The position numbers and the translations under genes were made by a program. Shown in pieces: positions 10,076 through 60,716 of a DNA stretch of 64,000 bases (position 1 is the stretch's first letter; each line of letters starts with the position of its first letter). Source of the stretch: Pseudeuparius sepicola (lineage: Eukaryota; Arthropoda; Insecta; Coleoptera; Anthribidae); the NCBI GenBank assembly GCA_963920635.1, contig OY987302.1, positions 44,643,500 through 44,707,499 on the forward strand, written 5' to 3'. Below the pieces are notes generated by a model. That model was not told the origin of the DNA and did no database searches. It saw only the letters and a program-made list of their open reading frames with translations.

Positions 10076-10189
10076 ATGGGCTTATTGGTTAAAATTTCAA
10101 ATAGTTCTGCTGTAAAAAGTTGTTTCTTTTTTAATATATCTGAAAATTCTGAAAATAAATGCAAACGTTCTTCTTGTCACTGTGAAGCT

Positions 10190-10495
10190 TACTCCCTTTT
10201 GGAAAAACAGAGCAGCTCTCTATGCTGGTTCGCTCAATTTTCAATCGCCGGAATCACGCAAGAGAGTACAAAATACTCGTATGTAATATCTCATCTGGAT
10301 GAATGCTACGCCAGCGAGGTTGACGATATCATCAGGTCTTCACCTTCAGAAAATCCCTATACAACTTTAAAAGAGGAACTTATTAAGCGTTTAACTGCAT
10401 CTGAAGAGCAACGTGTCCGACAACTTCTAATGGAAGAAGAATTAGATGACCATAAACCATCGCAATTTTTACGTCACCTACGATCACTAGCTAAT
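10190..10495 (+). pseudogene. Ty3/Gypsy retrotransposon Gag fragment
   Basis: About 90 codons read WFAQFSIAGITQESTKYSYV, then ENPYTTLKEELIKRL and EEQRVRQLLMEEELDDHKPS, a pattern known to me from Gag proteins of insect Ty3/Gypsy elements. A frameshift is visible at the start: PFWKNRAAL is in another frame just before WFAQ. The frame breaks off into AT repeats after FLRHLRSLAN near 10,490. No LTR, protease or RT is present nearby. Confidence 0.75.
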
Positions 10496-15735: not shown

Positions 15736-17802
15736 ACAATAAAGATGTAAGATTAGCGAGTGTAAATGTAACAATTACAAGAAAAGGTGATAATGGGCAA
15801 ACACTCAAAGTTAACAAAAAGAAAAACTAGTAACCGCATACACGTGTTTCATGCTATTTGGCAATCATCAGTACGGTGTAACATTAACCAAATCAAAAGA
15901 TAGGCATGATTTGGGAAGCAACAAATGAAGTCCAGGCAGGAGCCAACAGCACATTTGCAGCTTCAGTCAGCACATCCCCTATTTTGGGGCTTGTACTAAC
16001 ATCGCCACGGAGGCTGCTAAAGCGACCTGCGTGGAAATCTTCATAACCCAAGATACAATGACAATAAGGATGTAAGATTAGCGAGTGTAAATGTAACAAT
16101 TACAAGAAAAGGTGATAATGGGCAAACACTCAAAGTTAACAAAAAGAAAAACTAGTAACCGCATACACGTGTTTCATGCTATTTGGCAATCATCATTACG
16201 GTGTAACATTAACCAAATCAAAAGATAAGCATGATTTGGGAAGCAACAAATGAAGTCCAGGCAGGAGCCAACAGCACATTTGCAGCTTCAGTCAGCACAT
16301 CCCCTATTTTGGGGCTTGTACTAACATCGCCACGGAGGCTGCTAAAGCGACCTGCGTGGAAATCTTCATAACCCAAGATACAATGACAATAAGGATGTAA
16401 GATTAGCGAGTGTAAATGTAACAATTACAAGAAAAGGTGATAATGGGCAAACACTCAAAGTTAACAAAAAGAAAAACTAGTAACCGCATACACGTGTTTC
16501 ATGCTATTTGGCAATCATCAGTACGGTGTAACATTAACCAAATCAAAAGATAGGCATGATTTGGGAAGCAACAAATGAAGTCCAGGCAGGAGCCAACAGC
16601 ACATTTGCAGCTTCAGTCAGCACATCCCCTATTTTGGGGCTTGTACTAACATCGCCACGGAGGCTGCTAAAGCGACCTGCGTGGAAATCTTCATAACCCA
16701 AGATACAATGACAATAAGGATGTAAGATTAGCGAGTGTAAATGTAACAATTACAAGAAAAGGTGATAATGGGCAAACACTCAAAGTTAACAATAAGAAAA
16801 ACTAGTAACCGCATACACGTGTTTCATGCCATTTGGCAATCATCAGTACGGTGTAACATTAACCAAATCAAAAGATAGGCATGATTTGGGAAGCAACAAA
16901 TGAAGTCCAGGCAGGAGCCAACAGCACATTTGCAGCTTCAGTCAGCACATCCCCTATTTTGGGGCTTGTACTAACATCGCCACGGAGGCTGCTAAAGCGA
17001 CCTGCGTGGAAATCTTCATAACCCAAGATACAATGACAATAAGGATGTAAGATTAGCGAGTGTAAATGTAACAATTACAAGAAAAGGTGATAATGGGCAA
17101 ACACTCAAAGTTAACAAAAAGAAAAACTAGTAACCGCATACACGTGTTTCATGCTATTTGGCAATCATCAGTACGGTGTAACATTAACCAAGTCAAAAGA
17201 TAAGCATGATTTGGGAAGCAACAAATGAAGTCCAGGCAGGAGCCAACAGCACATTTGCAGCTTCAGTCAGCACATCCCCTATTTTGGGGCTTGTACTAAC
17301 ATCGCCACGGAGGCTGCTAAAGCGACCTGCGTGGAAATCTTCATAACCCAAGATACAATGACAATAAGGATGTAAGATTAGCGAGTGTAAATGTAACAAT
17401 TACAAGAAAAGGTGATAATGGGCAAACACTCAAAGTTAACAAAAAGAAAAACTAGTAACCGCATACACGTGTTTCATGCTACTTGGCAATCATCAGTACG
17501 GTGTAACATTAACCAAATCAAAAGATAGGCATGATTTGGGAAGCAACAAATGAAGTCCAGGCAGGAGCCAACAGCACATTTGCAGCTTGCTGCATTTTGG
17601 GGCTTGTACTAACATCGCCACGGAGGCTGCTAAAGCGACCTGCGTGGAAATCTTCATAACCCAAGATACAATGACAATAAGGATGTAAGATTTGTAAGAA
17701 CAATTACAAGAAAAGGTGATAATGGGCAAACACTCAAAGTTAACAAAAAGAAAAACTAGTAACCGCATACACGTGTTTCATGCTATTTGGCAATCATCAG
17801 TA
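15736..17802. repeat. 325-bp satellite array, about 6.4 copies
   Basis: Landmarks recur every 325 bp (for example 15,893, 16,218, 16,543, 16,868, 17,193 and 17,518). Copies differ by one or two bases each; only the last full copy (17,518 on) has two deletions, near 17,587 and 17,692. 325 is not a multiple of three and each unit carries stops, so the identical 68-codon minus-strand frames are by-products of the repeat. Near identity points to recent amplification. Confidence 0.95.
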
Positions 17803-24385: not shown

Positions 24386-25960
24386 AATAATAATCATAAT
24401 AATATAATAATAATAATGTTTATTCATGAAACCACAGTACATAATGTGTTGTAACCTATGCATACATGTATTTTTTTTACACAAAAATGTTTTCTTACCG
24501 GTAGGTGACAACACTTAAACTCCTAGGCAGAAAACTACAACAAGGGTGGTTCTTTTAAACAAACATTGAAAGTAATGGACTCACAAAAACCATAAGTTGC
24601 GCGTGGGCCATATTAGAATATTATTAGCTTAATATTTTTTGCAACACGGCACAAAATGAATAAGAGTTAATACAAACAAAATCTTCCTTAAATGTAAATA
24701 AAACAGAAAAAATTGCACTTTTGGTACAACTTATTTAAAAATATACTCGTATATATATAAAGATATTTTTTTTAACAAAAGACTTCACAATTTCAAGGAA
24801 CTAGGACATGACTATATTATTATGACTATACTTCCATCATACCGTTGAGTGAATTATTATTCCTCTCTCAACGATTATACATATTCGGAACAAATTACTT
24901 TCTTAATGCTGCCCCTACCTACAGAGCACACATAAGATCTTAAATGGTTTTTAAACGACCCTAATGAGAGTTTTATAATTTGCGTTTTTAAAGATGTATT
25001 CAAAAAATTAAACACGCGCAAAGCTAAGTGCGAATAACTCTTTTGTGTGATTGTTTTTTTAGACATAATTGTTCTTGATTTTCCCTGTGTTTTCTGTCTC
25101 GTACAGTAAGAGTGGTCAATCCTATCTATCTCGTGTCTATTCTTATAAAGGTTTATACATATCGCTTGAAAATACAACTGCCTGACGTCGAGACATTTAG
25201 TCTCAGAGAAGAGGGCATCAGATGGATACAATTTCGTTTTTTTATATATGGTTTTTAGGAAATACTTTTGTAAAACTGCCAGTTTGTTCAGATGCGCATC
25301 TGCCACTCCACCCCATCCCAGAATGCCATATTGCAGCCTTGATTGAACTAGGCCACAATATAAGACTCGTAAAAGGTAAGTATTCAGAATACTGCTAAAA
25401 TATTTAAACCGGTGCATTAGTGGTCTCAAATTCATTATAACATGTTTCACATGCTTATCCCATCTCATGTGACTGTCAATTATGAATCCAAAATATTTTA
25501 TTTTTTCAGACTATTGGATCCTGAATAGGCCACCATCATCTGTATTTTGAAACTCCAAATATTTATATGTGGGTAAATGATTTTTGTATGCAGCGAAGCG
25601 AAATCACAGTTAACTGTAAGGTACCTATATTTAAATGCACAGAAAAGTTTTGACATATCATTCTCTACGTTGGTTTTTAGGTTATCCCACGTCTCTCCAG
25701 AATAGATCACTACGGTGTCGTCCGCAAAGGACAAGATTTTTCCGCTTGTTTCCAAGGTAAGTATATTATTTATATATAGGAGGAATAGCAATGGACCCAG
25801 CACAGTTCCTTGTGGGACTCCAATCGATATATTCCTCTCGATTCGTAACACCTCATTAACGCAGACTCTTTGTTTCCGTCCCGTAAGGTAACTCCTAAAA
25901 AGATCCAACGCAACGCCTCGTATCCCTGAATCTTCCAAGACTTGAAGTAATAAGTTAGAT
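24386..25960 (-). pseudogene. 5'-truncated Jockey/CR1-like LINE (RT and C-terminal region)
   Basis: Minus strand, starting at about 25,960 inside the reverse transcriptase: GIRGVALDLFRSYL, then GVPQGTVLGPLLFLLYINN and the catalytic SFADDT (about 25,715-25,735). One frameshift near 25,490 separates this from the next segment, FGFIIDSHMRWDKHVKHVI and the C-terminal region (VQSRLQYGILGWGG), ending at 24,875. A 490-bp 3' tail ends in (ATT)n at 24,386-24,420. Endonuclease and ORF1 are missing. It lies wholly inside the hAT element 22,622-26,049. Confidence 0.9.
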
Positions 25961-26319: not shown

Positions 26320-26458
26320 GATTCTGTAATGAGGTTAGAATGAAAAAATTCGATACGAGTGGAAGATTCCGAACGCGAGCGTTAGCGAGCTTGAGGAACC
26401 ACGAGTATCGAATTGTTTCATTCTAACCGAGTAACAGACTGAATTTTCTCCACGACCA
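26320..26458. mobile_element. Left part of a palindromic repeat used as insertion target
   Basis: GTTAGAATGAAAAAATTCGA at about 26,332 is answered by its complement near 26,425, forming a hairpin. Its edge (TTTTCTCCACGACCATTCGT, about 26,444-26,463) reappears inverted at 42,316-42,337, beyond the giant element. The 15.4-kb element therefore landed inside this repeat. Confidence 0.6.
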
Positions 26459-26726
26459 TTCGTGAGTAGTAATACAAAGAGAGTACGGGCTCACTTTGAC
26501 CTCAGTTGACCCCTTGATCCTGAGAGTCCCCTACGGCCCGAGGTCACGGGAGCAAAGTGGCTACGTCATGCCCGAGGTCACGTGACGTCACCGGATGACC
26601 CCAGTTGACCCCTAGATCCTGATAGGTTAACCTTTGACCTTTGGGCCACGTGTGACCCCCAGTTGACCCCCCCCCCACTCCAACGACGGGGCAACCCCCA
26701 CTCCAACGGCTTGGTGGGGTGAGGTC

Positions 26727-26765
26727 TATATATTCGTGCGCAAGAGCAGTTTTCCCGTTATATAC
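26727..26765 (+). promoter_or_regulatory. TATA-like boxes of the left-arm gene pair
   Basis: TATATAT at 26,727-26,733 is followed by an arthropod-initiator-like GCAGT at 26,747; a second TTATATAC lies at 26,758-26,765 with ACAGT near 26,780. The ATG is 72-77 bases downstream of the first box. The same arrangement exists inverted in the right arm (about 41,530-41,568). Confidence 0.5.
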
Positions 26766-26803
26766 ACTTACAATTTCCCACAGTCTGATTTGCCGAGTTC
26801 AAA

Positions 26804-27112
26804 ATGCAGTCGTTCCTGAATCACCTGAACAAGAATTTGATCGTCAAGAAATTCGAAAGCGTTCAAAATATGGACGTGGATGAAAATTTTCAAATCACGA
26901 GCGTGGACAAAGTGAACACGCAATACGGAGAGAAGGTCTACGTAGAGTTCGAAGAATTTAAGACGGTGCTGCCGCAACGATACACGGCCGAGTTTACGCC
27001 CCAACGGATCGAAGAAATTAATAGGGATATCGGTAACGGAAGGAGGTATTACATGAAGAGTCTTGGACCCGTCGGCCGATCTACAAATATCGAATTTATT
27101 GTAGAACCATGA
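26804..27112 (+). CDS. Unknown 102-residue protein, first gene of overlapping pair (left arm)
   Basis: ATG at 26,804 in context CAAAATG; 102 codons ending TGA. The predicted protein is identical in the right arm. Composition is balanced, with alternating hydrophobic strands: FESVQNMDVDENFQITSVDK, then TQYGEKVYVEFEEFKTVLP, RIEEINRD and ending GRSTNIEFIVEP. The strand pattern with 'xYGxxVxVxFxxFKxxLPxRY' suggests a small beta-barrel, OB-fold-like, and I have a general impression of similar small proteins from insect mobile DNA, but I cannot name a family. A nucleic-acid-binding role is inference only. Its stop overlaps the ATG of a 40-codon frame. Confidence 0.75.
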   Translation: MQSFLNHLNKNLIVKKFESVQNMDVDENFQITSVDKVNTQYGEKVYVEFEEFKTVLPQRYTAEFTPQRIEEINRDIGNGRRYYMKSLGPVGRSTNIEFIVEP

Positions 27113-27231
27113 CGAAGCTGGAGTACAGAAGAAAACTGCAACAATATTTGAAGAATTTAGAAGCATTGAAATATGAACTTATGTTATATGAAATTAAAAT
27201 GAAGATAAAACATATTGACTTACACAATTAA
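27109..27231 (+). CDS. 40-residue helical peptide overlapping the previous gene by ATGA (left arm)
   Basis: The ATG at 27,109 shares its last bases with the TGA stop of the 102-codon gene (sequence ATGA). It runs 40 codons to TAA at 27,229-27,231. The peptide (starts MTKLEYRRKLQQYL) is strongly helical with heptad-like Leu/Tyr spacing and many Lys/Arg and Glu: a short coiled coil. A polyadenylation signal AATAAA follows at 27,237-27,242, so both frames lie on one short transcript. ATGA overlaps allow termination-reinitiation; -1 frameshift fusion is the alternative. Conserved in the right arm. Confidence 0.55.
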   Translation: MTKLEYRRKLQQYLKNLEALKYELMLYEIKMKIKHIDLHN

Positions 27232-27349
27232 TTTTTAATAAACGTTTAAAAATCTTTTGTTGTGTTTTTTTATAAGAATCTTTGTGTTGAAGGGAAAACA
27301 CCTGAAGCATCATATTATAATAAAACTCTCACTCTAAGCAATAATATCA

Positions 27350-27890
27350 CTCTATTCCACTGTTATGTGTATACAGGGTGATTCTTAACTTATACACATA
27401 AATTTAGAAAATTGTAGGTTATGTCAAGTAATGGCTAATAATGAAAAAAAAGTCTAATAAAATTGTTATCGATAAGGTCTGCGTTTGTGATCTTATGAAC
27501 CATAATTTTTAATTTATTTGTGCAAATAAACCCCGAATTGTTCAAGTACACAAAAATATAACTCAGCTGTTGCGTCGCATCGGGTTACTCGCTGCGAACG
27601 CGTGACCGCATAGTAAATATATAGTAAGAGAAAACACGTGGAATAGTTCACGACAGACGCCTGCTTTGTTTGGTCGAGCACTCAGCGATTTTGCTGAAAC
27701 CGCATATAGAACAATAGGCTACAAATTTCACCCAATTATCTTCTAAATAAAAAAATCTGAAAAAATTGCAGATAGAATAATAAACGGAAAATTTGGGAAA
27801 ATCAGCATGTAACGCAAACGATTTAGGCCGGAATCTTCAACTAGACACGTGGAAATCCGAGGTAGACTCCTTGGTATCAGGAAATGTGAT
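27350..27890. other. Segment present only in the left arm (541 bp)
   Basis: Replaces an 85-bp right-arm segment. It starts near ACAGGGTGATTCTTAACTTA, resembling insect MITE ends, but no matching inverted end or clear duplication is seen. No gene. Confidence 0.65.
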
Positions 27891-28490
27891 ACTACGTGCC
27901 AGGAGAAACGGAGGCCGAAGGCCTCCGTCCGACTGGCATGTAGTTGCCCGAACAAAATCCACCCTTCCCCCTTGCACGCGTTTCGCGCATGCGCAGTTCC
28001 GCACTTTTGATACCTGAAAAATCGAAAAAATTTGAAAATTTTTTATTCAAAAAATGTAATTTTAAAAAGGTCCTGATCCTATTTATAATCCCGATAACAT
28101 TTTGGGAAATTTTCATTTTTTGACGGTGAAATGTACAAGACAAGACTCAGACGAATGTTTTATATACAAGTGCAGATAGAATTTTTTCGAGTGACTGATA
28201 AAAACAGTTATTATAATAGTTAGTCGGAAGGCCCCAGATAACATAGGAAATTTTGTTTGAACAAAATCTGTAAAAAAAATCCAAGACGTGAAAATGTAGG
28301 TAGAATTTTCGAATAAGTTTTGTATACCGGTAAAAATATATGTAAAGGTAAAAATAACGTCAGTTTCACTTGGAAAAAAATGATGAAAAAATTTCAGTAA
28401 AAAAAATACGATGTAGAGGTTGTACCAAAAAAAATTGGAAATAATTATTTATTCCAGTAAAATATACACAAGACCGAAAAAGGTAATTGC

Positions 28491-30180
28491 GCGGCTGTCC
28501 CATTTTATACACCCTAGCTGTTTCAGTTCATCTCGTTTGGAAAAATTTTAGGGGTTATTACTTTTTTAAATACCGGTTTCCTCAACCTTATTTGAAAGTA
28601 AATATTTTTTAGTTCCCTACAGAAGGAAATAATGACGATATTTTATACCGGTGGATTCAAAAAATATATAAGGTTAGGAAAAAACCTTGGTAGGCAAACG
28701 CGGCTCTGCTGACCAGACAAAAAAAAACCTTAGTCGACAAATAATGGCCTATAAGAAGGGTGCGTGATTCCACGTATCAGTTCGAGTGCTCCAAGATGCA
28801 AGTAAGTATATACCAGCTGTCCCATTTTTAAACAGCTAGATATTTGGAAACCTTTCGTAAAAAAATTCCCAAGGATTACATGAGCAAAAGAAAGAAAAAA
28901 ATGTAAATATACCAGCTGTCCCATTTATAAACCGCTTGATATCTTGGAAACGAAAACTTATATAAAGGAAGTAAAAGCTATATCTTAATAGGCGGAGGAC
29001 CGACTGTCATTCAGACAGGTGAAAATTTTTTGTGATTTTTTGTAGAAGTTTTTTGCCAAAATTTTTTTTTGTCAATTTTTTTTTCGTCAAAATTTTTTTT
29101 TGTCAAATTTTTTTTTTGACAATTTTTTTTGCCAAAATTTTTGTTTGCCAAATTTTTTTTTGCCAAATTTTTTTTTTGTCAAAATTTTTTTTGTCAAAAT
29201 TTTTTTTTGCCAAATTTTTTTTTTGTCAAAATTTTTTTTGTCAAAATTTTTTTTTGCCAAATTTCTTTTTTGGTCAAAATTTTTTTTTGTAAAATTTTTT
29301 TTGACATTTTTTTTGCCAAATTTTTTTTTTGTCGAATTTTCTTTTGCCAATTTTTTTTTTGCCAAATTCTTTTTCGACAAAATTTTTTTTGATACAAATA
29401 TAATTGCTAACGTTTAATTTGTTTACCCCATTTACGAAAATGATAACAAAATTGGATCAGACAAGATGTTTTTTCGAAGTATAGTTTTTAAACACAGGGT
29501 GCCACCACCGGTTTTACGATATAGGTTTCAAAATGCGACGCAAGTACATAAAAAAAATACCCTAGAGATAAGAAAACAAAATACAACTCACCGAAAGATT
29601 CTTGATGATGTATAAAAAGAAATCAGGTTACATCTAATGCCCCAGACAGTAAAATAAACATCCCCGAGCTATCAGATATAACCAAACATCATTTTTCTAA
29701 CGGCACAGTCATTTTCACGGGAAAAACAACCAGTAACCGTTCAAATTCCATAGATAGGTACTGCCGTAATCCAAAATTTCACTGAACTACGCGTATCTAT
29801 TATACTGAAGTAGGTACTGATACACTTCCATCTTTCCAAAGAAAAACAAACACGAAACTCAGACTTTTCATATATTTATTACAACGCCTCGATAGAGTCT
29901 TTATTTGTGGCCACGACCGAGAATCTACTGAAGCAAGTGCGACGCATAGGACGTGAAAAGTGCCGAGTTGGTTTTATTAAACAATGAAACTTATACCTAC
30001 GTATATATAAAATAAATGAGAAATATGCCAGAGATGTGAAACCTAATTGTGTTGCAAGTTTGAGGGTCCAAAAAAAATATTGGCTTTAATTTTTTAAGGT
30101 GAGAAACACATCTAACAGCCAGTTTGGAAATATACAAGGCAAAAAAAGTAGTGATGTGGCTGTCCCATTTTATGTTTTAT
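28491..30180. repeat. Dispersed GCTGTCCCATTT motif in the left arm
   Basis: GCTGTCCCATTT or a close form occurs at about 28,493, 28,816, 28,913 and 30,160, three of the four followed within 25 bp by further shared sequence (CTAGATATTTGG/CTTGATATCTTGG or TATACA). Mirrored in the right arm. Could be binding sites or old MITE debris. The 64-codon frame crossing two of them (28,730-28,924, minus) is not credible as a gene. Confidence 0.55.
29032..29400. repeat. T-tract minisatellite in left arm
   Basis: About twenty units of 17-18 bp of the type (GCC or GTC)AAA(A)TTTTTTTT. The right-arm counterpart is at about 39,364-39,720 and differs in unit number. Open frames across it (Phe-rich one way, Lys-rich the other) are artefacts of the repeat. 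Confidence 0.9.
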
Positions 30181-30281
30181 ACAGGTTGGGTTATTTTAGA
30201 ATAGTTGTTCAATAGACCGAGACAACATCATAAACGCTTCCCGTTAGAACAGAATGTGATGAAAAGAAAAATTCCATCTGG

Positions 30282-30515
30282 GTCAAGCTACTACATAACC
30301 AAAATAAAAAATACTGAACGTTATAAAATTTAAAAAATCATATTTTCTACGGATTTTTATCCTCTGAAAATTGTTCTTGTGTAAAATTCAGTTTCTCTGG
30401 GTCAAGCTAGGTGGTAACTATATAACCAAAATAAAAAATACTGAACGTTATAAAATTTAAAAAATCATATTTTCAAGGGATTTTTGTCCTCTGAAAATTG
30501 GTTTTGTATAAATTG
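30282..30515. repeat. Tandem duplication, about 117-bp unit (left arm)
   Basis: GGGTCAAGCTA…AACCAAAATAAAAAATACTG…CCTCTGAAAATTG occurs twice in a row with minor changes; mirrored at about 38,242-38,475 in the right arm. The duplication therefore predates arm copying. Confidence 0.85.
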
Positions 30516-30997
30516 AGTTTCAATAAGTTACTAATTGAGATAATAGGAAAAAAATCTTAAGAATCTCTTATAGAATTCTGAGACAACGACCCTGAGAGTA
30601 AATATCATACAAAAATCTTTGTGCGTTGACTTTCAACTCAATTTAATAATTAGGTTTAATAATGACAATTTTCTCGATTATCTAGAATCAAAAATATTGC
30701 GAGTGGCAATTTTCTAGATATCATGTGAAGCCTTATTATTGCGTCGTAAGTTAGAGGATCCAAAAATATTGGCTTAAATTGTTTAGTAAATGCGATTAAA
30801 ATATGTTTAGTTTATCAACAGTTAATTGTAACAGCTTATAATCTTAGAAGCTAAACTCTTTAAAAAATTTTTTAGACAAAAAGTTGTAGTTTAATAATGG
30901 TCAGTTGGATTCCTTTTGAATCATGTTTGCATATTACCTACAAGGAGTTACAACCTCAAAACAAAGAAATCGCTCATTTTAAACCGATTTAATAAAA

Positions 30998-31350
30998 ATT
31001 TCACCAAAACAATACTTTCACTCATATGATACACTTCTGATTAATAAAAAAGGCACCATAGGTAGTAATAATAAGATATTCAACGGAATTTTTATCGACT
31101 GTTTGCCCATTTTGCTAGCTTTTGGGGGTATTTCTTGATATTTTAGACTGATAAAAATGAATAATAAAAATTAAAAATAAAAATTTCACCAAAACAATAC
31201 TTTCACTCATATAATACACTTCTGATTAATAAAAAAGGCACCATAGGTAGTAGTAATAAGTTATTCAACGGAATTTTTATCGACTGTTTGCCCATTTTGC
31301 TAGCTTTTGGGGGTATTCCTTGATATTTTAGACGGATAAAAATGAATAAC
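30998..31350. repeat. Tandem duplication, about 177-bp unit (left arm)
   Basis: AAATTTCACCAAAACAATAC…GGGGGTATT(T/C)CTTGATATTTTAGAC appears twice, about 95% alike; mirrored at about 37,406-37,758 in the right arm. Confidence 0.85.
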
Positions 31351-31496
31351 TAAAATACAAAACGCACTGTTGACTTTACTTACGTGAATAGTAAGCCTAT
31401 AATACGTATCGAAAACAGAGAAATATTCAGGTCAAGAAAAAAATGGCCTAATTTACAATAAAAAATATAGCAGACAACATAGCGATGACACCGATT

Positions 31497-31880
31497 GACC
31501 CGTTTTGCTGGTAAAAAGTAAACAAAGGTACCTATTGCGATTCTAATCAGGCATTTCCAACGGAGATGCCTTCAATACGCCCACGTGGGAGAGCCGCCGG
31601 TGTTTCGTCACATGCAAATCGCCGCTCGAGATGGAAGCATCTCGGCCTTTCGACGCATTGCGCGCCACTTCGTTTGTTGAAATCTGGCCGCCGCGCCGCC
31701 GTCAACTTGCCCGGAGATGCCTCGCTACGTGGTGCGTCGCATACTCGCCGTCGCGTGGTGTATGGGCGCCAGCTTTTGGCCAATTTCAAGGGAATCGTTT
31801 TTCATATTTTCGACGGATTTTCGTCCTTTTTGCAGACGTTACACTGCTAAATTGATCCGTTTTGCTGGCAAAAAATATTT
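31497..31880. other. GC-rich island between direct repeats, near inner end of left arm
   Basis: A GC-rich, CpG-rich stretch (31,560-31,800) is flanked by TTGACCCGTTTTGCTGGTAA (about 31,497) and TTGATCCGTTTTGCTGGCAA (about 31,852). It contains GGAGATGCCT twice and CACGTG. Frames of 70-94 codons exist on both strands with Arg-rich, feature-poor translations, so I do not call a gene. Mirrored at about 36,876-37,259 in the right arm. Confidence 0.55.
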
Positions 31881-31918
31881 CTATCGCCATGACTGAGTCA
31901 CGACGCTTGGCCTTATGC

Positions 31919-32706
31919 GATAAACAATGTGTGTGGGTAGAGACATTCGCGGGAAAAGGTGTAACATAATATGCATGCTTTCTTCATGCAATGAATTGTA
32001 AATAAAATTCATACATCGAACTGTGACTGGTGACTGGATAAAAATGCCGTAATAAGAATCGACTGTTTTCATGAATAACCTCATTGAATTTTATGCAGTT
32101 TTAGAAAGTTAATGTGGGTTGGAAAATTTGTATTATATGCTGGATGCAGAGAAAAAGTGGAAATTTCATATAAGTTGAGCTGTTTATGAATGAAAAAAAG
32201 TTGGAGAACAATACCTACTTATACAAACACAACAGAACGAGACAGTCTTAAAGAAAATGGGCAATTCACTCTTTGTGTATAGGACTCGAACAGCGACTTA
32301 TTATTTTAATCGGTACTGTTGTAAGAAATTCAGAAATGGAATTTTGGTTTATTTAATAAAAATATATACTTACACATTTTATCTTTATCTTTTTATGGTG
32401 CACTTTAACATATTTTCAGTTTGTAACATGTTTCTCAGGAGAACAAAATCAGGAAATACTTGTCTCTAGGATTATATTATTATTACATTTTAGTTTCAAC
32501 ATGTTTTTGCACTTATAAGGGAGGATAGAAAAAAACCAAAAATATACATAAAACATATTTATTGTGTATAAAAATATAAAAGAAAATATACTTAAAAGCT
32601 AAGAATACGTATTAAATTTAAAACTAAAAGAAGGATAGGTATCTATAAACAACGTTGGAAAATAAAGACTCAAAATTTTTTTAAAAATATTTAATGTGAG
32701 AAAAAA
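31919..32706. other. Unique centre, left part: no gene seen
   Basis: AT-rich. The minus-strand hexamer AATAAA (plus TTTATT, 32,557-32,562) could end the coiled-coil gene's transcript. Nothing else supportable. Confidence 0.4.
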
Positions 32707-33449
32707 CTACTTTTTTACCACATTAAATCTTTTTAAAATACCAGCAGACAGCCGTTTATCCCTCTCCATTTTCTCAATTTTGGCTATAGATACCTGCTCC
32801 CTTTTTCTCAGTCGTTCTTTCTCTCTCCTAATAGTCGCCAGTCGATGTTGCTCCTCTCTCAAGGATTTTAGATTTTCGGCGTCCTTTTGTTTCAGCCCTT
32901 TTGAGACCTGTAATATATAGGAACCGAGTGAAGTACTCCCAGGACTAGTCAGCTCCTCGAATTCATCCTCGCTGTCCATCTGCTGACTAACACTAATGTG
33001 CACGTCACTAAAGGAGTCCTCGCTGTCCATGCCCAACTGACGCATGTCTTTACCACCATTTCCTTTCAATTGTGGGTTATTCGTGTTTTCCACACCACAC
33101 TGCTCGACGTCCTCTTGCCGATGAACCGGTGAAATAATGGAATTCGGACAGAATGCCATTATCTCGTCGTAACAAGGCACTTGGGAGGGCGACACGAAGG
33201 ACGCACTATTCAAATCGGGCATGTTGTATGACTGTGCAGAGTCGATGGTTGGCTGAAAAGAAAAAAAATAATAAGTTTAATTTAGAAAAAAAGTATTTTT
33301 CAAAAATAAAGTTTAAAAAATAATTTTGTATGAAAAAAATTGTTGAAGATTACCAGAAAACCAAGATTTATACTTACAGGCATTATTAGCATATTGCTAA
33401 GGATAGTAGGTTTCTTTGTCGAGAGAGACAACTTCTTAGGGTGCTGCAT
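32707..33449 (-). CDS. Two-exon gene for an acidic protein with C-terminal coiled coil (about 205 aa)
   Basis: Exon 1 is 33,378-33,449 (ATG CAG CAC…, 24 codons) ending CCT|GTAAGT; exon 2 is 32,707-33,252 after a pyrimidine-rich …TTTTCAG acceptor; the 125-bp intron is phase 0 and both sides are open in frame. N-terminal part is Ser/Asn/Pro rich; the middle is acidic (MDSEDSFSD, MDSEDEFEEL, a duplicated MDSED motif); about the last 70 residues (LKQKDAENLKSLREEQHRLA onward) form a charged coiled coil ending FNVVKK. No family recognised; the shape resembles DNA-binding or scaffold adaptor proteins, but that is a guess. An internal ATG at 33,222 would give 171 residues without exon 1. Only in the unique centre of the giant element. 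Confidence 0.7.
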
Positions 33450-33504
33450 TGTAAGTATCCAAAATACACAAAAAACACACCACTGGAACTACTATTGTGA
33501 ATCA

Positions 33505-33520
33505 AGAAACTTATAAGAGA
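33505..33520 (-). promoter_or_regulatory. TATA-like box of the two-exon gene
   Basis: Minus strand TCTTATAAG (33,510-33,518) lies about 62 bases before the ATG at 33,449, the same layout as for the acetyltransferase gene. Confidence 0.45.
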
Positions 33521-36108
33521 GGAGGCTGTGAACTGGCTAATGGCCATTCAACAAACCTCTTTAAAGGGAAAAAATTCGATGTCAGTCAAAAAATATAGTA
33601 GGAGAAAAACGATTTGCACACTCTAGAATTTTTAAAAAACTTGTTTATTGATCTGAGCGAGACTGTGTGGCGTTATGCGTGGTCATTAAATTTAATATGT
33701 GGTAAACAAGAGGCCACGGGGATGAACGATATAATGCAATGTAATCAAAAAAAATTAGCTAGACTGTATGGCGTTATACACGTTCTTTAGGGCCGGACTG
33801 GGCTGATGGACTAGGGGGAATTAGATTGTTAATACATCGCAGAGTCTTTGCGAAATTGAATGTGATAATGTTTAAAGAAACAAATCGCGCATGGGTTGTC
33901 CAATCATATCGTTGCACAGTTAATTAAAAATGTAGACGCAAAAACATATCTCCCAAAAAAAAAAGTTCAACCTACTTTCCGCTTAAAAATCGAACAACAG
34001 AGGTATCTCCCATCGCTCACAAAACCAATTCCAGAAAGGACAAGAACGCCAAGGCCGGGCGCACTCAAATTTCGTATCGGTGTTTTCTTTTAGTCGAAAA
34101 ATATTTCCAAGGTAAAAGCTGAACTTTTGGGGTGTATGTTGAAAATTTACATTTTGGGGTACGAATGAGGTTGATCGCGGCATCTCGGCTAGAAGGTCAA
34201 AATGGGTCAAAATGGGCCTAAGGTTTTGAAATTTTTTTTTACACCTACCTAATTCTTCATCTTGAACAAGTTTCATTAACAACATTTTAACGTGTAAGCT
34301 ACAGAAAAGGCACTCTTCTATAATAGTATAATATTTTTAATTAAAAGATACCTCTGTAAGGATATTAGGCAGACTTTTAGGCTATGTGTTCTCTAGAAAA
34401 ATTGTTAGAGTGCTTGCTTTAGGTAGCGAAAATCGCAGGGGTAGAAAGTCACGGTGGAGTCATTGATAAACGGTTCCACTTATCGAAATTTGGAAGGAAG
34501 TCACTGTGGTAATCATCGTTAAAATCTTCTATTACCTACGCTGCTATAATTAAATATTTATCTACGGCTTGGTTCTGTTTCTTTTCCAATGCCTAAATAG
34601 TACATTTTATAATATTAATTTTGTTTCCTCTCCAATATATTTTACGGTGTTTGTATCACATATATCTGTGAAAAACAACGTTTCAGATATTTCTCAGTTT
34701 TTAAGAGCGGTGTTTGGTCAGAAACGATCTAGTGGATGATGGGGTAGTAAAAAGGCCGCCGTTTTTCCAGAGCCTGTTTTGAATACACCCCACCAAGTCT
34801 TGACTTGTCATTATGATAGGTATTGCATACTTTTGTATAGGAGTCAGCTTTTGTTAACCCAACTTCTTTCTGTTATCTTCTTCCACCATTTTAATCTCAA
34901 TTCATCTACCCCACGCCACAATATGTTACTAATCGTGAATAAATAGCACATTTCATAGTGAAGTTTATAAACCAGTGGGATTTGGCAATTTTGTTTAAAT
35001 ATAATGAAAAATAGCTCGTTTTGGTCTTGATTATTGTTAGACAAATTATCGCAAACTTCACTTTTCAGAAGAATGATTTTATTGTGATGTAATGATTGTA
35101 CAAAGACGCCAGCGCAAACACGATCACGATAATTAACTGCTAACCTTAAACAAAACAGCTGACGATTTTATGCGATTTTTATTATGACTTAGCTTGTTGT
35201 TCCCCTGTTCCGCGCTGACTTAGCCTATTCTTCCCGTGTATGGGTATTTTAAAGTAATACGTATATTGTGACCTAGCCTGTTTTTCCCCTGACTATTACG
35301 TTGGTTTGAAAGAGCACACAATTTACCACAAGATGGCACTGTAATCCCAATTTCAACAAAAAATGACTTGGCCTGTTTTTCCCGTGTACCCTTCATATGG
35401 TTTTGTTTCTCTCAAGATTGGGTTTCAACCCCAGTGGCGAAAGAAGGAAGGCCCCAACTTGCATTATCTAGTTTTTACTCTAATCTTTTCTAGTCTATAT
35501 TGTTTAGGATTTGTATGAAAAAATGAATTTTGTATCATCAAGTTTGCGACTTTCCCTGCAGCTCGAAACGGTTGTTTGTGATTCCATACTTTCATAATAT
35601 AAGCTTATAAGGTAATATCCCATATTTTTAAATTACACTATTCTTTGTATCTCTCTAATATGTTTGATCAAACATGGATTAGACCTCCTGCGCCCTGCAT
35701 TCTACCTCAAAGGTGGTGGGAAAATGAATGCATATAGTTTTGTTACAATTTAAAAATATATATAAAAGAACAATTCAACCTATTTATAACTAATATCCAT
35801 ATGAAACTGTACGTCTAATTTGCGATTAAAAATTTTTGTTGAAGGTGTGAAACATTTTCGATTTTTTTTTTATTGCGTTCTGTATTCTACCTCGAAGTAG
35901 GAAACGAACGCATGATGATTGTCAGTTAAATGCGACGTGGTTCTTCAATTTCTCGGCCACGCTCGTCGGCCAAATTTTTTATCGAGACTTGCACAGCAAA
36001 ACGCCGGGCGCCACGGAGCGCCGCTGCGTCTAGGGTTCCGATGCAAAATATCTCAGCCGCGCTCGTACCTGGATCGTGGGAGCACAGATGTTTGATGACA
36101 CCCGGATT
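33521..36108. other. Unique centre, middle part: non-coding with short repeats
   Basis: Phrases of the type TGACTTAGCCTGTTTTTCCC occur four times between about 35,186 and 35,385. Two related phrases, GCGCCCTGCATTCTACCTC and GCGTTCTGTATTCTACCTC, lie near 35,690 and 35,877. Open frames near 33,896, 33,983-34,285 and 35,930 have no recognisable features. Confidence 0.45.
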
Positions 36109-36639
36109 TCAGAGGCGTACATCAGGGTGTAGTCTAATTTCTTGCTGAATCATCAATGTTGGAGGATTTCGGCAATAATGGACCCGATTTTGAGGTGCTT
36201 TGTGAAAAAAAAGAAGAAAAATTGACACAAACATTTTATTAGGGGATCTATACATGGTGTTATAATTTATTTCTCCGTAATTAATACATGAACAGTTTTC
36301 AAAAAGTTTTTCTGAATTGGTATTAGAACAGAAAGACGTAAATTGATTAATTTTCTTAATATGATTCACTAGTCTTGACGCATATCCTCTTCGACGATAT
36401 TCTTCATGGGTAAAAACAAAATTGAGATTTTTCGGGTTGGAGTGTTTGTTTAAAGGGTCGAAATCAATTTTTGACATTAGGACAAATGAAACCGGTTTAG
36501 CATCAACGTATAATATATAGCACGATATTTTTTTATCTAGGCACCACTGATCGAACATACTTCTTGCAATACCATCTCTCACGACTTCTTGTCTTATTTT
36601 GTTTACTGCTTGTCGATCAAAAAAGAATCTGATCTCCAT
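36109..36639 (-). CDS. GNAT-superfamily N-acetyltransferase-like protein
   Basis: GNAT enzymes move an acetyl group from acetyl-CoA to an amine. Start: the frame extends 12 codons further up, but that start is GTG; the first ATG is at 36,639, giving 176 residues. Seen: a strand-rich first half (CYILYVDAKPVSFVLMSKID), then LNFVFTHEEYRRRGYASRLV; RRRGYA (residues 82-87) is the acetyl-CoA pyrophosphate loop (R/Q-x-x-G-x-G/A) and starts the long helix. NTMYRSPN near residue 128 resembles the C-terminal part of small GNAT proteins; the last ~40 residues look like read-through extension. Target unknown. In the unique centre of the giant element, next to the right arm. Confidence 0.8.
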   Translation of the reverse strand: MEIRFFFDRQAVNKIRQEVVRDGIARSMFDQWCLDKKISCYILYVDAKPVSFVLMSKIDFDPLNKHSNPKNLNFVFTHEEYRRRGYASRLVNHIKKINQFTSFCSNTNSEKLFENCSCINYGEINYNTMYRSPNKMFVSIFLLFFHKAPQNRVHYCRNPPTLMIQQEIRLHPDVRL

Positions 36640-36675
36640 GTTGCACAGACGTTTGAATGAAAAATCATCGGTCAC

Positions 36676-36753
36676 ACACTTTTAAGACATTACCCCCACC
36701 ACTTTTATATTTTTCCATACACTTTTTAAGACGTTACCCCCACCACTTTTATA
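36676..36753 (-). promoter_or_regulatory. Duplicated TATA promoter of the acetyltransferase gene
   Basis: A ~34-bp sequence is present twice, at 36,676-36,709 and 36,719-36,753. On the minus strand each copy reads TATAAAAGTGGTGGGGGTAA followed by (C/T)GTCTTAAAA. The nearer TATAAAA is 64 bases before the ATG at 36,639, a good distance for a start site near 36,675. Confidence 0.65.
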
Positions 36754-39363
36754 AATTTTAAACTAGCCGAAACCTTGACCCATTTGAGATGTTAAGATAT
36801 TTGGGGAAGCGTTTGGAAGTTGCGCCAGCAGCGAATTGCATAAGGTCAAGCGTCGTGACTCAGTCATGGCGATAGAAATATTTTTTGCCAGCAAAACGGA
36901 TCAATTTAGCAGTGTAACGTCTGCAAAAAGGACGAAAATCCGTCGAAAATATGAAAAACGATTCCCTTGAAATTGGCCAAAAGCTGGCGCCCATACACCA
37001 CGCGACGGCGAGTATGCGACGCACCACGTAGCGAGGCATCTCCGGGCAAGTTGACGGCGGCGCGGCGGCCAGATTTCAACAAACGAAGTGGCGCGCAATG
37101 CGTCGAAAGGCCGAGATGCTTCCATCTCGAGCGGCGATTTGCATGTGACGAAACACCGGCGGCTCTCCCACGTGGGCGTATTGAAGGCATCTCCGTTGGA
37201 AATGCCTGATTAGAATCGCAATAGGTACCTTTGTTTACTTTTTACCAGCAAAACGGGTCAATCGGTGTCATCGCTATGTTGTCTGCTATATTTTTTATTG
37301 TAAATTAGGCCATTTTTTTCTTGACCTGAATATTTCTCTGTTTTCGATACGTATTATAGGCTTACTATTCACGTAAGTAAAGTCAACAGTGCGTTTTGTA
37401 TTTTAGTTATTCATTTTTATCCGTCTAAAATATCAAGGAATACCCCCAAAAGCTAGCAAAATGGGCAAACAGTCGATAAAAATTCCGTTGAATAACTTAT
37501 TACTACTACCTATGGTGCCTTTTTTATTAATCAGAAGTGTATTATATGAGTGAAAGTATTGTTTTGGTGAAATTTTTATTTTTAATTTTTATTATTCATT
37601 TTTATCAGTCTAAAATATCAAGAAATACCCCCAAAAGCTAGCAAAATGGGCAAACAGTCGATAAAAATTCCGTTGAATATCTTATTATTACTACCTATGG
37701 TGCCTTTTTTATTAATCAGAAGTGTATCATATGAGTGAAAGTATTGTTTTGGTGAAATTTTTATTAAATCGGTTTAAAATGAGCGATTTCTATGTTTTGA
37801 GGTTGTAACTCCTTGTAGGTAATATGCAAACATGATTCAAAAGGAATCCAACTGACCATTATTAAACTACAACTTTTTGTCTAAAAAATTTTTTAAAGAG
37901 TTTAGCTTCTAAGATTATAAGCTGTTACAATTAACTGTTGATAAACTAAACATATTTTAATCGCATTTACTAAACAATTTAAGCCAATATTTTTGGATCC
38001 TCTAACTTACGACGCAATAATAAGGCTTCACATGATATCTAGAAAATTGCCACTCGCAATATTTTTGATTCTAGATAATCGAGAAAATTGTCATTATTAA
38101 ACCTAATTATTAAATTGAGTTGAAAGTCAACGCACAAAGATTTTTGTATGATATTTACTCTCAGGGTCGTTGTCTCAGAATTCTATAAGAGATTCTTAAG
38201 ATTTTTTTCCTATTATCTCAATTAGTAACTTATTGAAACTCAATTTATACAAAACCAATTTTCAGAGGACAAAAATCCCTTGAAAATATGATTTTTTAAA
38301 TTTTATAACGTTCAGTATTTTTTATTTTGGTTATATAGTTACCACCTAGCTTGACCCAGAGAAACTGAATTTTACACAAGAACAATTTTCAGAGGATAAA
38401 AATCCGTAGAAAATATGATTTTTTAAATTTTATAACGTTCAGTATTTTTTATTTTGGTTATGTAGTAGCTTGACCCAGATGGAATTTTTCTTTTCATCAC
38501 ATTCTGTTCTAACGGGAAGCGTTTATGATGTTGTCTCGGTCTATTGAACAACTATTCTAAAATAACCCAACCTGTATAAAACATAAAATGGGACAGCCAC
38601 ATCACTACTTTTTTTGCCTTGTATATTTCCAAACTGGCTGTTAGATGTGTTTCTCACCTTAAAAAATTAAAGCCAATATATTTTTTGGACCCTCAAACTT
38701 GCAACACAATTAGGTTTCACATCTCTGGCATATTTCTCATTTATTTTATATATACGTAGGTATAAGTTTCATTGTTTAATAAAACCAACTCGGCACTTTT
38801 CACGTCCTATGCGTCGCACTTGCTTCAGTAGATTCTCGGTCGTGGCCACAAATAAAGACTCTATCGAGGCGTTGTAATAAATATATGAAAAGTCTGAGTT
38901 TCGTGTTTGTTTTTCTTTGGAAAGATGGAAGTGTATCAGTACCTACTTCAGTATAATAGATACGCGTAGTTCAGTGAAATTTTGGATTACGGCAGTACCT
39001 ATCTATGGAATTTGAACGGTTACTGGTTGTTTTTCCCGTGAAAATGACTGTGCCGTTAGAAAAATGATGTTTGGTTATATCTGATAGCTCGGGGATGTTT
39101 ATTTTACTGTCTGGGGCATTAGATGTAACCTGATTTCTTTTTATACATCATCAAGAATCTTTCGGTGAGTTGTATTTTGTTTTCTTATCTCTAGGGTATT
39201 TTTTTTATGTACTTGCGTCGCATTTTGAAACCTATATCGTAAAACCGGTGGTGGCACCCTGTGTTTAAAAACTATACTTCGAAAAAACATCTTGTCTGAT
39301 CCAATTTTGTTATCATTTTCGTAAATGGGGTAAACAAATTAAACGTTAGCAATTATATTTGTA

Positions 39364-39720
39364 TCAAAAAAAATTTTGTCGAAAAAGAATTTGGCAAAAA
39401 AAAAATTGGCAAAAGAAAATTCGACAAAAAAAAAATTTGGCAAAAAAAATGTCAAAAAAAATTTTACAAAAAAAAATTTTGACAAAAAAGAAATTTGGCA
39501 AAAAAAAATTTTGACAAAAAAAATTTTGACAAAAAAAAAATTTGGCAAAAAAAAATTTTGACAAAAAAAATTTTGACAAAAAAAAAATTTGGCAAAAAAA
39601 AATTTGGCAAACAAAAATTTTGGCAAAAAAAATTGTCAAAAAAAAAATTTGACAAAAAAAAATTTTGACGAAAAAAAAATTGACAAAAAAAAATTTTGGC
39701 AAAAAACTTCTACAAAAAAT
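39364..39720. repeat. T-tract minisatellite in right arm (A-rich on plus strand)
   Basis: Inverted counterpart of 29,032-29,400, with a different internal unit arrangement: repeat-number drift between the arms. Confidence 0.9.
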
Positions 39721-40860
39721 CACAAAAAATTTTCACCTGTCTGAATGACAGTCGGTCCTCCGCCTATTAAGATATAGCTTTTACTTCCTTTATATAAGTT
39801 TTCGTTTCCAAGATATCAAGCGGTTTATAAATGGGACAGCTGGTATATTTACATTTTTTTCTTTCTTTTGCTCATGTAATCCTTGGGAATTTTTTTACGA
39901 AAGGTTTCCAAATATCTAGCTGTTTAAAAATGGGACAGCTGGTATATACTTACTTGCATCTTGGAGCACTCGAACTGATACGTGGAATCACGCACCCTTC
40001 TTATAGGCCATTATTTGTCGACTAAGGTTTTTTTTTGTCTGGTCAGCAGAGCCGCGTTTGCCTACCAAGGTTTTTTCCTAACCTTATATATTTTTTGAAT
40101 CCACCGGTATAAAATATCGTCATTATTTCCTTCTGTGGGGAACTAAAAAATATTTACTTTCAAATAAGGTTGAGGAAACCGGTATTTAAAAAAGTAATAA
40201 CCCCTAAAATTTTTCCAAACGAGATGAACTGAAACAGCTAGGGTGTATAAAATGGGACAGCCGCGCAATTACCTTTTTCGGTCTTGTGTATATTTTACTG
40301 GAATAAATAATTATTTCCAATTTTTTTTGGTACAACCTCTACATCGTATTTTTTTTACTGAAATTTTTTCATCATTTTTTTCCAAGTGAAACTGACGTTA
40401 TTTTTACCTTTACATATATTTTTACCGGTATACAAAACTTATTCGAAAATTCTACCTACATTTTCATGTCTTGGATTTTTTTTACAGATTTTGTTCAAAC
40501 AAAATTTCCTATGTTATCTGGGGCCTTCCGACTAACTATTATAATAACTGTTTTTATCAGTGACTCGAAAAAATTCTATCTGCACTTGTATATAAAACAT
40601 TCGTCTGAGTCTTGTCTTGTACATTTCACCGTCAAAAAATGAAAATTTCCCAAAATGTTATCGGGATTATAGGATCAGGACCTTTTTAAAATTACATTTT
40701 TTGAATAAAAAATTTTCAAATTTTTTCGATTTTTCAGGTATCAAAAGTGCGGAACTGCGCATGCGCGAAACGCGTGCAAGGGGGAAGGGTGGATTTTGTT
40801 CGGGCAACTACATGCCAGTCGGACGGAGGCCTTCGGCCTCCGTTCCTCCTGGCACGTAGT

Positions 40861-40945
40861 TGCCCACCCGCCACCCCCCACCCACCCCGGGGTAGACTAA
40901 GTCCACCCCCCCCCAAGGGGTGGACCCAAAATCGATCGCGCTATA
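40861..40945. other. Segment present only in the right arm (85 bp, C/G-rich)
   Basis: Contains runs of C, GGTGGACC-type complements and CGATCGCG. Corresponds to the 541-bp left-arm segment 27,350-27,890. Confidence 0.65.
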
Positions 40946-41063
40946 TGATATTATTGCTTAGAGTGAGAGTTTTATTATAATATGATGCTTCAGGTGTTTT
41001 CCCTTCAACACAAAGATTCTTATAAAAAAACACAACAAAAGATTTTTAAACGTTTATTAAAAA

Positions 41064-41186
41064 TTAATTGTGTAAGTCAATATGTTTTATCTTCATTTTA
41101 ATTTCATATAACATAAGTTCATATTTCAATGCTTCTAAATTCTTCAAATATTGTTGCAATTTTCTTCTGTACTCCAGCTTCGTCAT
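41064..41186 (-). CDS. 40-residue helical peptide (right-arm copy)
   Basis: Inverted copy of the frame at 27,109-27,231, with the same ATGA overlap to the preceding gene and the same polyadenylation signal downstream. Its persistence in both arms supports it as real, although the arms are so alike that this alone is weak. Confidence 0.5.
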   Translation of the reverse strand: MTKLEYRRKLQQYLKNLEALKYELMLYEIKMKIKHIDLHN

Positions 41187-41491
41187 GGTTCTACAATAAA
41201 TTCGATATTTGTAGATCGGCCGACGGGTCCAAGACTCTTCATGTAATACCTCCTTCCGTTACCGATATCCCTATTAATTTCTTCGATCCGTTGGGGCGTA
41301 AACTCGGCCGTGTATCGTTGCGGCAGCACCGTCTTAAATTCTTCGAACTCTACGTAGACCTTCTCTCCGTATTGCGTGTTCACTTTGTCCACGCTCGTGA
41401 TTTGAAAATTTTCATCCACGTCCATATTTTGAACGCTTTCGAATTTCTTGACGATCAAATTCTTGTTCAGGTGATTCAGGAACGACTGCAT
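41183..41491 (-). CDS. Unknown 102-residue protein (right-arm copy)
   Basis: Translates to the same 102 residues as the left-arm copy at 26,804-27,112, with the same upstream TATA arrangement. The element therefore carries two doses of this gene, transcribed inward from both ends. Confidence 0.75.
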   Translation of the reverse strand: MQSFLNHLNKNLIVKKFESVQNMDVDENFQITSVDKVNTQYGEKVYVEFEEFKTVLPQRYTAEFTPQRIEEINRDIGNGRRYYMKSLGPVGRSTNIEFIVEP

Positions 41492-41837
41492 TTTGAACTC
41501 GGCAAATCAGACTGTGGGAAATTGTAAGTGTATATAACGGGAAAACTGCTCTTGCGCACGAATATATAGACCTCACCCCACCAAGCCGTTGGAGTGGGGG
41601 TTGCCCCGTCGTTGGAGTGGGGGGGGGGGTCAACTGGGGGTCACACGTGGCCCAAAGGTCAAAGGTTAACCTATCAGGATCTAGGGGTCAACTGGGGTCA
41701 TCCGGTGACGTCACGTGACCTCGGGCATGACGTAGCCACTTTGCTCCCGTGACCTCGGGCCGTAGGGGACTCTCAGGATCAAGGGGTCAACTGAGGTCAA
41801 AGTGAGCCCGTACTCTCTTTGTATTACTACTTTCGTG

Positions 41838-51974: not shown

Positions 51975-52269
51975 TAATTCAGTCAGTCCGTTTCGTTTCG
52001 AGTGGACGCACGCATTTTTAATAACGCTTGGAAAATAAGCCCAAAATAATCCAGTAAAGACCAAAAAATATACCAAAAATTTGTGCTAGTGATATTAGTT
52101 TATTAGTCGAGTATCGCATCATGAAAAAGTGAATTAATGTGTATTAGTTCCCCAGTCAGCGTACCGGCCAAAGTCAGACACAAAAAATCAATTAAAAAAT
52201 CACCGCCTGTGTATATAGTGCCAGTGCCGCATATGCTTGTACTATCTTATTAGGCGAGTCTATAAAAAT

Positions 52270-53103
52270 ATGTCTGGCATTGAGAAACTTTCCCAGGAAC
52301 ACGCTCTGTTATATAAATTGTTAATAGAAGCAAACAAACAACAAACAATAGATATTGCAAATAAAGTCGAAAGGAGTGTGGAAATTATCGAAACAAGACT
52401 AAGGAAAACTGAAAACGAAGTTGTTGAATTAAAACGGCGTTGCATTGAGTTGGAAAGAAAACAAAGATGTAATAATGTTATCATATTTGGTTTGAGGGAC
52501 CTCCCGGATAACAATAATAGCGCCTTAGTGTGTAAGGTGCTTAAGTTGCTTAATAAGGTCCTAGACATTGAACTGCAAATATCAGACCTAAACAATATTT
52601 ATAAAATAGGCGATAAAAAAGATCCTCCCGTTGTTATTGAATTTGTGTCGTATATCAAGAAGTTAACATTATATACCAACAAGGAAAAACTGAAGGGACT
52701 CAGACAACATAATATTGCCATCTCAAATGATCTATGCACAGAAGATAGAGAAGTGAATAGGACCTTGACGAAACATATGAGGAGTGTCCGAGCACAAGGA
52801 CACAAAGCAGTTATAAGAGGTCGTAGGTTAATTATTGATGAGAATCCTTATACAATAGAAGACCTGGAAAACCTAGAGGAGGAAATTGAGAGTGCACAAG
52901 AAGAAGTAGAAGAAGAGGGAGAGGATAAAACAAGTCACCCAGAGGTTTTAGAAACTACATCTATATCCAGAGAAACAAAATTGTCCACCGCTACCAAAAC
53001 AGACAATCAACCACAGCTACAAGATAAAACGAAAAGGAAGAAAAGAAGAATATCCTATAGCCCTAAACAAGGAAGCGTTATCACAAGAAGTTCCAAAAAG
53101 TAA
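52270..53103 (+). CDS. LINE ORF1 protein
   Basis: True ATG is at 52,270 (ATGTCTGGC); the frame extends 11 codons upstream but only from a TTG. 277 residues, intact. N-terminal coiled coil (about residues 15-65), then CNNVIIFGLRDLP, the start of the RRM-like domain of L1-type ORF1 proteins, a basic C-terminal domain (KAVIRGRRLIID), an acidic stretch and a very basic tail (KRKKRRI). It binds LINE RNA and acts as a nucleic-acid chaperone in retrotransposition. ORF2 starts 53 bp downstream. Confidence 0.8.
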   Translation: MSGIEKLSQEHALLYKLLIEANKQQTIDIANKVERSVEIIETRLRKTENEVVELKRRCIELERKQRCNNVIIFGLRDLPDNNNSALVCKVLKLLNKVLDIELQISDLNNIYKIGDKKDPPVVIEFVSYIKKLTLYTNKEKLKGLRQHNIAISNDLCTEDREVNRTLTKHMRSVRAQGHKAVIRGRRLIIDENPYTIEDLENLEEEIESAQEEVEEEGEDKTSHPEVLETTSISRETKLSTATKTDNQPQLQDKTKRKKRRISYSPKQGSVITRSSKK

Positions 53104-53156
53104 GGTATAGGTATATATATAGTTGTTCTAACAAACTATAAGGTCAAAACAAAAAA

Positions 53157-60707: not shown

Positions 60708-60716
60708 TATACATGT

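Follow-up and report, generated by a model that had tools for sequence, protein, structure and literature searches.

Polintons, or Mavericks, are thought to be intermediate between transposons and viruses, and most of what is known of how they replicate comes from analogy. In related replicons, replication is established to be protein-primed and to start from both ends, and such a process would copy any linear DNA with these ends. In the defective genomes of other protein-primed replicons, fold-back gives an inverted duplication of one end, as is known for defective adenovirus and yeast linear-plasmid genomes. Large retrotransposon derivatives (LARDs) and miniature inverted-repeat transposable elements (MITEs), like large non-autonomous derivatives generally, are ends without enzymes, and Foldback and Galileo elements (P superfamily) have P-type ends and make target duplications of 7-8 bp. 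For intact vertebrate Mavericks, the available part of PMC8097293 gives terminal repeats of 46-1,447 bp (mean 402) and 6-bp duplications, and the available part of PMC3573991 describes long, internally repetitive inverted repeats as most characteristic of Galileo, which is classed with the P element. Here we describe an element of about 15 kb (positions 26465-41831) in a stretch of 64,000 nucleotides from the beetle Pseudeuparius sepicola (contig OY987302.1, positions 44,643,500 to 44,707,499; hereafter the window). We read it, with a probability of roughly 0.8, as one copy of an amplified, non-autonomous Polinton satellite with two right ends, which has lost the left end and the core genes, is copied and integrated in trans, and arose by snap-back.

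The termini of the element are exact (AGTAGT…ACTACT), with AGTAGTAATACAAAGAG... just within the left TTCGTG and its mirror image at the right, and TTCGTG abuts each side exactly; reading the sequence thus bears out the ends and the duplication given in a preliminary description of this DNA. The window contains the 30-nt end two times, in inverted orientation, and 100 shuffles did not contain it. AG...CT ends with an (AGT)2//(ACT)2 motif and 6-bp duplications are shared with vertebrate Mavericks, as far as the available part of PMC8097293 describes them, and the terminal repeat of 642 bp and the gene pair at the right end also belong to Polintons of this genome. Unlike a Polinton, however, the element has no core genes and two right ends in place of a left and a right one, and its arms of 5,457 and 4,997 bp (within 3 nt of the 5,454 and 4,994 bp first reported, around a centre of 4,913 bp) are several times as long as the terminal repeats cited above, whose range is that of vertebrate Mavericks only. 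The long, internally repetitive inverted repeats recall foldback-type elements such as Galileo and FB, but the ends, the 6-bp duplications and the parent are those of a Polinton. When one replaced block is excluded, the two arms are 99.7-99.8% identical and differ by 9 substitutions and by three indels, each 1-4 nt long. At that block each arm has lost a different sequence, and both lost parts occur in other copies. The parts of the element are listed below; E1 to E14 are sister copies from the same genome that were read at length, a non-random set in which several were picked as short or long.

26459-26464, forward strand: left target-site duplication TTCGTG (6 bp), read from the sequence; sister pairs have exact 6-bp duplications
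26465-31921, forward strand: left arm, 5,457 bp; from its tip to 28.3-28.8 kb it aligns, apart from gaps, with the polymerase-side (right) end of Polintons E6, E10 and E12
26465-27106, forward strand: terminal repeat of about 642 bp, common to both ends of the core-carrying copies E6, E10 and E12
27350-27890, forward strand: left-arm block of 541 nt without right-arm counterpart, present in sisters E4, E5, E7 and E8
29049-29391, forward strand: A/T-rich 16-bp tandem repeat of the left arm; E10 and E6 have a similar one between the polymerase gene and the right end
31922-36834, no strand: unique centre, 4,913 bp, common to E4, E7 (split there by a nested Polinton) and E8, and in part to E5
33888-33893, forward strand: CGCATG, the empty site of the Polinton nested in E7, from the comparison of the window with E7
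36835-41831, reverse strand: right arm, 4,997 bp, an inverted copy of the left arm
39366-39706, reverse strand: A/T-rich 16-bp tandem repeat of the right arm, the same repeat as in the left arm
40861-40945, reverse strand: right-arm block of 85 nt without left-arm counterpart, present in 12 of 32 long pieces of other copies
41189-41831, reverse strand: right-end copy of the terminal repeat at 26465-27106
41832-41837, forward strand: right target-site duplication TTCGTG, read from the sequence; sister pairs have exact 6-bp duplications

The element belongs to a large family. With up to three mismatches, its 25-nt end was found 196 times in forward and 195 times in reverse orientation in the 769-Mb genome, and the same pattern read backwards, used as a control, was found in neither. 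The first 100 of these 391 ends were analysed (97 on contig C1 and three on C2), and a forward end was paired with a reverse end that followed it at no more than 40 kb. On C1, the 97 ends gave 43 pairs, 7.4-36.8 kb apart, and 11 singles, and the copy classes described below come from this one contig of 16, one pair on C2 and the window itself on C5. Of the 43 testable pairs (42 on C1 and one on C2), 39 have exact 6-bp duplications, most of which differ from one another; two pairs match at five of six positions and two have no duplication, compared with 2 matches in 1,806 deliberate mis-pairings. In sequence, the duplications tend towards nA(C/T)GTn. Because sister pairs bear these duplications, TTCGTG is the true edge of the element, where the preliminary description had drawn it, and the several copies with different duplications that it had proposed to look for exist.

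No Polinton core genes were detected, in line with the first reading of this DNA, either in a Pfam scan of six-frame translations (X placed at each stop) of 31900-36900 and 26480-31460, which cover the centre and most of the left arm, or in the window by tblastn with nine Polinton proteins (E<=1e-4). Apart from GNAT-type domains, the Pfam scan returned nothing but weak, low-complexity HC2 matches, which lie in the tandem repeat and fall short of the cut-off. Since it lacks the core, we class the element as a Polinton derivative and not as an autonomous Polinton. The nine query proteins come from a Polinton nested in E7, whose own pieces were for that reason omitted from the tblastn output. Eight of them, including the capsid, the ATPase, the integrase, a phospholipase-A2-like (PLA2-like) protein and the polymerase, matched in each of E6, E10 and E12, whereas none matched in E1-E5, E8, E9, E11, E13, E14 or the window. 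E6, E10 and E12 therefore combine the window's own ends with homologues of the capsid, ATPase, integrase and polymerase genes, and they are the kind of full-length relatives with polymerase B and integrase that, according to the preliminary description, would show the parent. Not all of the core open reading frames (ORFs) are intact in the copies read. E10 measures 14.8 kb, with a terminal repeat of 641 bp. The Polinton that supplied the queries represents a second family of 19,294 bp (C1:112138498-112157791), with ends that read AGTAGTTAAGTAAAGCGG..., a 107-bp terminal repeat and a duplicated CGCATG. It encodes a double jelly-roll (DJR) capsid protein (PF21738, E=2.7e-77), an A32-type ATPase, an rve integrase, a PLA2-like protein and a 1,119-aa ORF in which four polymerase-B motifs occur in order and for which Pfam gave no polymerase match.

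Which end of the Polinton do the two arms represent? In the arm alignments, from which pieces below 80-200 nt were dropped (in one set also far-off-register pieces, with at most 14 pieces shown per copy), the window arm is matched by the left ends of E6, E10 and E12 only over 26465-27106 (642 bp), after which they diverge, while the match to their right ends, on the polymerase side, continues with gaps as far as 28.3-28.8 kb. Therefore, both arms of the window element are right ends, and the second possibility raised in the preliminary description, that a Polinton had lost its core and duplicated one end, agrees with what the core-carrying copies show. The right ends of E6 and E10 also contain the A/T tandem repeat. 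The type of end was then scored with a probe of 80 bases taken 680-759 bp from each end, for 30 C1 pairs not read at length and for the 14 copies that were. The 43 C1 pairs comprise 28 right/right, 12 left/right and no left/left pairs, with three unclear. Right/right ends are also those of the C2 pair and the window element. Among the copies read, those of left/right type are E6, E10 and E12, the three with core genes of their own. Mirror-image elements thus outnumber Polinton-like ones on C1 by 28 to 12, but they derive from few founders: because E9, E13 and E3 have one common loop, they are copies of one event, and the right/right excess counts a small number of origins.

The satellites fall into two groups by the bases that follow the shared end. 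CTCAC is found in the window element, E4, E5, E8 and the host element of E7, all of which have the window centre (E5 in part), and ACCAC in E9, E13, E3, E2, E1, E11 and E14. E9, E13 and E3 are palindromes around their common loop of about 120 nt, E3 being larger (19.3 kb) and interrupted. E2 is a palindrome with a different centre, and E1, E11 and E14 have related inner sequence. At separate places in the chromosomes there are palindromes 14-19 kb long in which the spacer is short or absent, and three of these have the same loop. ORFs resembling Tc1/mariner transposases were noticed by eye inside sister copies. The inner arm from 29.4 to 31.46 kb is present in both groups and absent from E6 and E10. 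In E12 (36.8 kb, C1:144423373-144460203), an E10-like core (97.9-99.5%) is followed by about 3.7 kb and then by the inner arms of a palindromic satellite, 4.3 kb long with a spacer of 287 nt. Its E10-like part stops in the tandem repeat, and the copy looks, on sequence grounds, like a recombinant of a Polinton and a satellite. The arms of one satellite differ by 0-1.1%, and an arm differs from the nearest arm of another copy by 0-1.0%, while the ends within each of E6, E10 and E12 are 1.6-4.0% apart. Because divergence among the satellites is small compared with that of the Polinton ends, the burst looks recent. Homogenisation of the arms within an element was considered as well; the comparison of left and right arms with those of other copies gave no support for it, the satellites being too alike. 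An independent snap-back for each palindrome is ruled out for E9, E13 and E3 by their common loop.

Several other origins have to be weighed against that of a double-right-end satellite. An assembly artefact, with inverted arms created by fold-back reads or a mis-join, is very improbable: long palindromes are difficult to assemble, but in 39 of 43 testable pairs the two sides have different flanks that share a 6-bp duplication, and the window arms are distinguished by 9 substitutions and by the replaced block, both alleles of which are represented in other copies. That the window element arose by simple loss of an internal part from a large Polinton such as E7 (32.7 kb) was suggested by the same arms, spliced gene and acetyltransferase standing there around a full core, and by a joint in the window that at first resembled a microhomology deletion. 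The core of E7 has its own inverted ends (AGTAGTTAAG..., the 107-bp repeat) and its own CGCATG duplication, however, and the joint sequence is intact (132/132) in E4, E5 and E8. E7 as parent is refuted, its core being a nested insertion, and for such a deletion in general we see practically no room. We also regard it as improbable that the element stands for an independent class of large elements with acetyltransferase and spliced genes of its own that captured Polinton ends. Polintons E6 and E10 contain nothing that matches the genes of the centre or the inner arms, and the centre is near-unchanged in E4, E7, E8 and partly E5, as such a class would have it, but it is about 2 kb of outer arm and the tandem repeat, not the tips alone, that match the Polinton right end, and the matched stretch includes the gene pair, whose first protein is 53% identical to its homologue in another Polinton family. 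Furthermore, other satellites whose centres differ have the arm in common as far as 31.46 kb, and the centre is therefore cargo.

A chromosomal origin is a possibility that we take seriously while leaning against it. Two opposed Polintons may have recombined, for example in the A/T tandem repeat, or gene conversion may have lengthened one end while the other was lost to it, with mobilisation in trans afterwards. E12 resembles such a recombinant in having an E10-like part that stops in the tandem repeat, and the terminal repeats of satellites and Polinton left ends are near-identical (0.16% divergence between the left repeat of E10 and the right repeat of E13). On the other hand, the loops of about 120 nt in E9, E13 and E3 would require two insertions almost back to back, and the left/left product is missing from all 43 C1 pairs, although these derive from few founders. 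Snap-back during replication, which we prefer, would proceed as follows. The growing or displaced strand would fold back on itself and give a molecule with two identical ends in mirror image; the satellite would be replicated through protein-primed strand displacement and would integrate in linear form, and the Polinton polymerase, terminal protein and integrase would act in trans on the shared ends. The palindrome might also, as the preliminary description proposed, extrude or replicate as a hairpin. The shared ends, the dispersed and little-diverged copies and the target duplications together point to integration by an enzyme that reads Polinton ends. Of the distinct class borrowing Polinton integrase in trans that was proposed initially, the class stands, as a high-copy group with the same ends and varied duplications, and the borrowing is its probable means of spread.

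The genes of the arms and the centre are as follows.

26727-26733, forward strand: TATA-like box upstream of the 102-aa gene, seen by eye and mirrored in the right arm
26804-27112, forward strand: 102-aa gene, copy 1, conserved in Polintons; its product is a candidate single-stranded DNA (ssDNA)-binding protein, for which an OB-like fold is predicted
27109-27231, forward strand: 40-aa ORF, copy 1, overlapping the 102-aa gene by ATGA
33449-33378 and 33252-32707, reverse strand: two exons of a spliced gene (205 aa), plausible by GT-AG, with the second-exon ORF kept in E4, E7 and E8
36109-36639, reverse strand: GNAT-type acetyltransferase, 176 aa (PF00583, E=3.6e-7)
41064-41186, reverse strand: 40-aa ORF, copy 2, the right-arm partner of the second 102-aa gene
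41183-41491, reverse strand: 102-aa gene, copy 2, encoding a protein identical to that of copy 1

The doubled bicistronic pair, the acetyltransferase and the spliced gene of the preliminary description are all recovered here: the 102-aa and 40-aa frames with their ATGA overlap in both arms, the GNAT domain by its Pfam match, and the spliced gene by its splice sites and by the retention of its second exon, in which no Pfam domain reached the cut-off. Beyond codon 145, the last 31 codons of the acetyltransferase (window 36109-36270) are in a frame that differs from that of E4, E7 and E8. The GNAT frame reads through an AATAAA directly after its domain.

The 102-aa gene has diverged between Polinton families with a pS of 0.87 and a pN of 0.26, and on this comparison it is under purifying selection. 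In the other family its homologue is followed by an ORF 38% identical to the 40-aa frame, there without an ATG at the overlap. The predicted structure has three strands, a helix and two strands. Its top match in the PDB is the ssDNA-binding protein P12 of phage PRD1, with a weak score, and named phage ssDNA-binding proteins are among its viral structure matches, likewise with weak scores. The protein resembles the ssDNA-binding proteins (SSBs) of PRD1 (P12) and the Bam35/phi29 group in its small size and, as far as the model goes, in the order of strands and helix, and also in that its gene lies near the element end and that the parent polymerase is of the protein-primed type. It differs from the SSBs of protein-primed replicons in that comparison with them gave no sequence match and the structure scores are weak. 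We infer from the model that it is a candidate small OB-like ssDNA-binding protein, and the doubled gene may thus supply a small OB-fold protein that serves the displaced strand.

A short palindromic repeat (26333-26428) lies about 30 bp beyond the left edge of the element, and tandem arrays occupy 15736-17802 (325-bp unit, 6.4 copies) and 1136-1609 (122-bp unit, 3.9 copies). The segments 6698-7245 and 59565-60714 match their own reverse complements at 86% and 85% and are probably other inverted-repeat elements. ORFs at 52219-55622, 24875-25959 and 10076-10663 represent elements resembling long interspersed nuclear elements (LINEs) and one ORF with DUF7041; in the LINE-like ORFs, Pfam finds a reverse transcriptase (25498-25959) and an endonuclease (53142-53963).

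Among known systems, the satellites share with LARDs and MITEs that they are enzyme-less and, on the contig sampled, exceed the Polinton-like copies in number, but they are mostly 12-17 kb long and have conserved genes and a duplicated end. With the defective genomes of protein-primed replicons they have in common a mirrored duplicate of one end, a lost core and a presumed dependence on a helper; here, in contrast, the molecules are integrated and amplified and carry private cargo. For incomplete particles of adenovirus, the available part of PMC5033970 describes left-end DNA and does not mention inverted duplications. No description of double-ended Polinton satellites was found in the open-licence literature as far as it was accessible, a search that did not extend to Repbase, and none appears in the available parts of PMC8097293, PMC6431247, PMC2871265, PMC5033970, PMC8276246, PMC8363768, PMC4028283 and PMC6035795. 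The nearest remark there is that Tlr elements were once proposed to be a non-autonomous Polinton derivative (available part of PMC4028283).

Could the Polintons of this genome have bred defective palindromic satellites, linear genomes with the polymerase-side end at both termini, by snap-back during protein-primed replication, which parasitise their enzymes, outnumber the parent, carry cargo and keep two copies of an SSB that is a distant counterpart of PRD1 P12? We put this forward tentatively, as something that could well be so but on which we would not yet insist. If it is true, the satellites are integrated fossils of defective genomes and thereby indirect evidence of free linear Polinton DNA. 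Their loops and joints may record how the DNA of the parent Polinton is copied, their ends show what suffices for being moved, and the doubled 102-aa gene provides a testable candidate for a Polinton ssDNA-binding protein.

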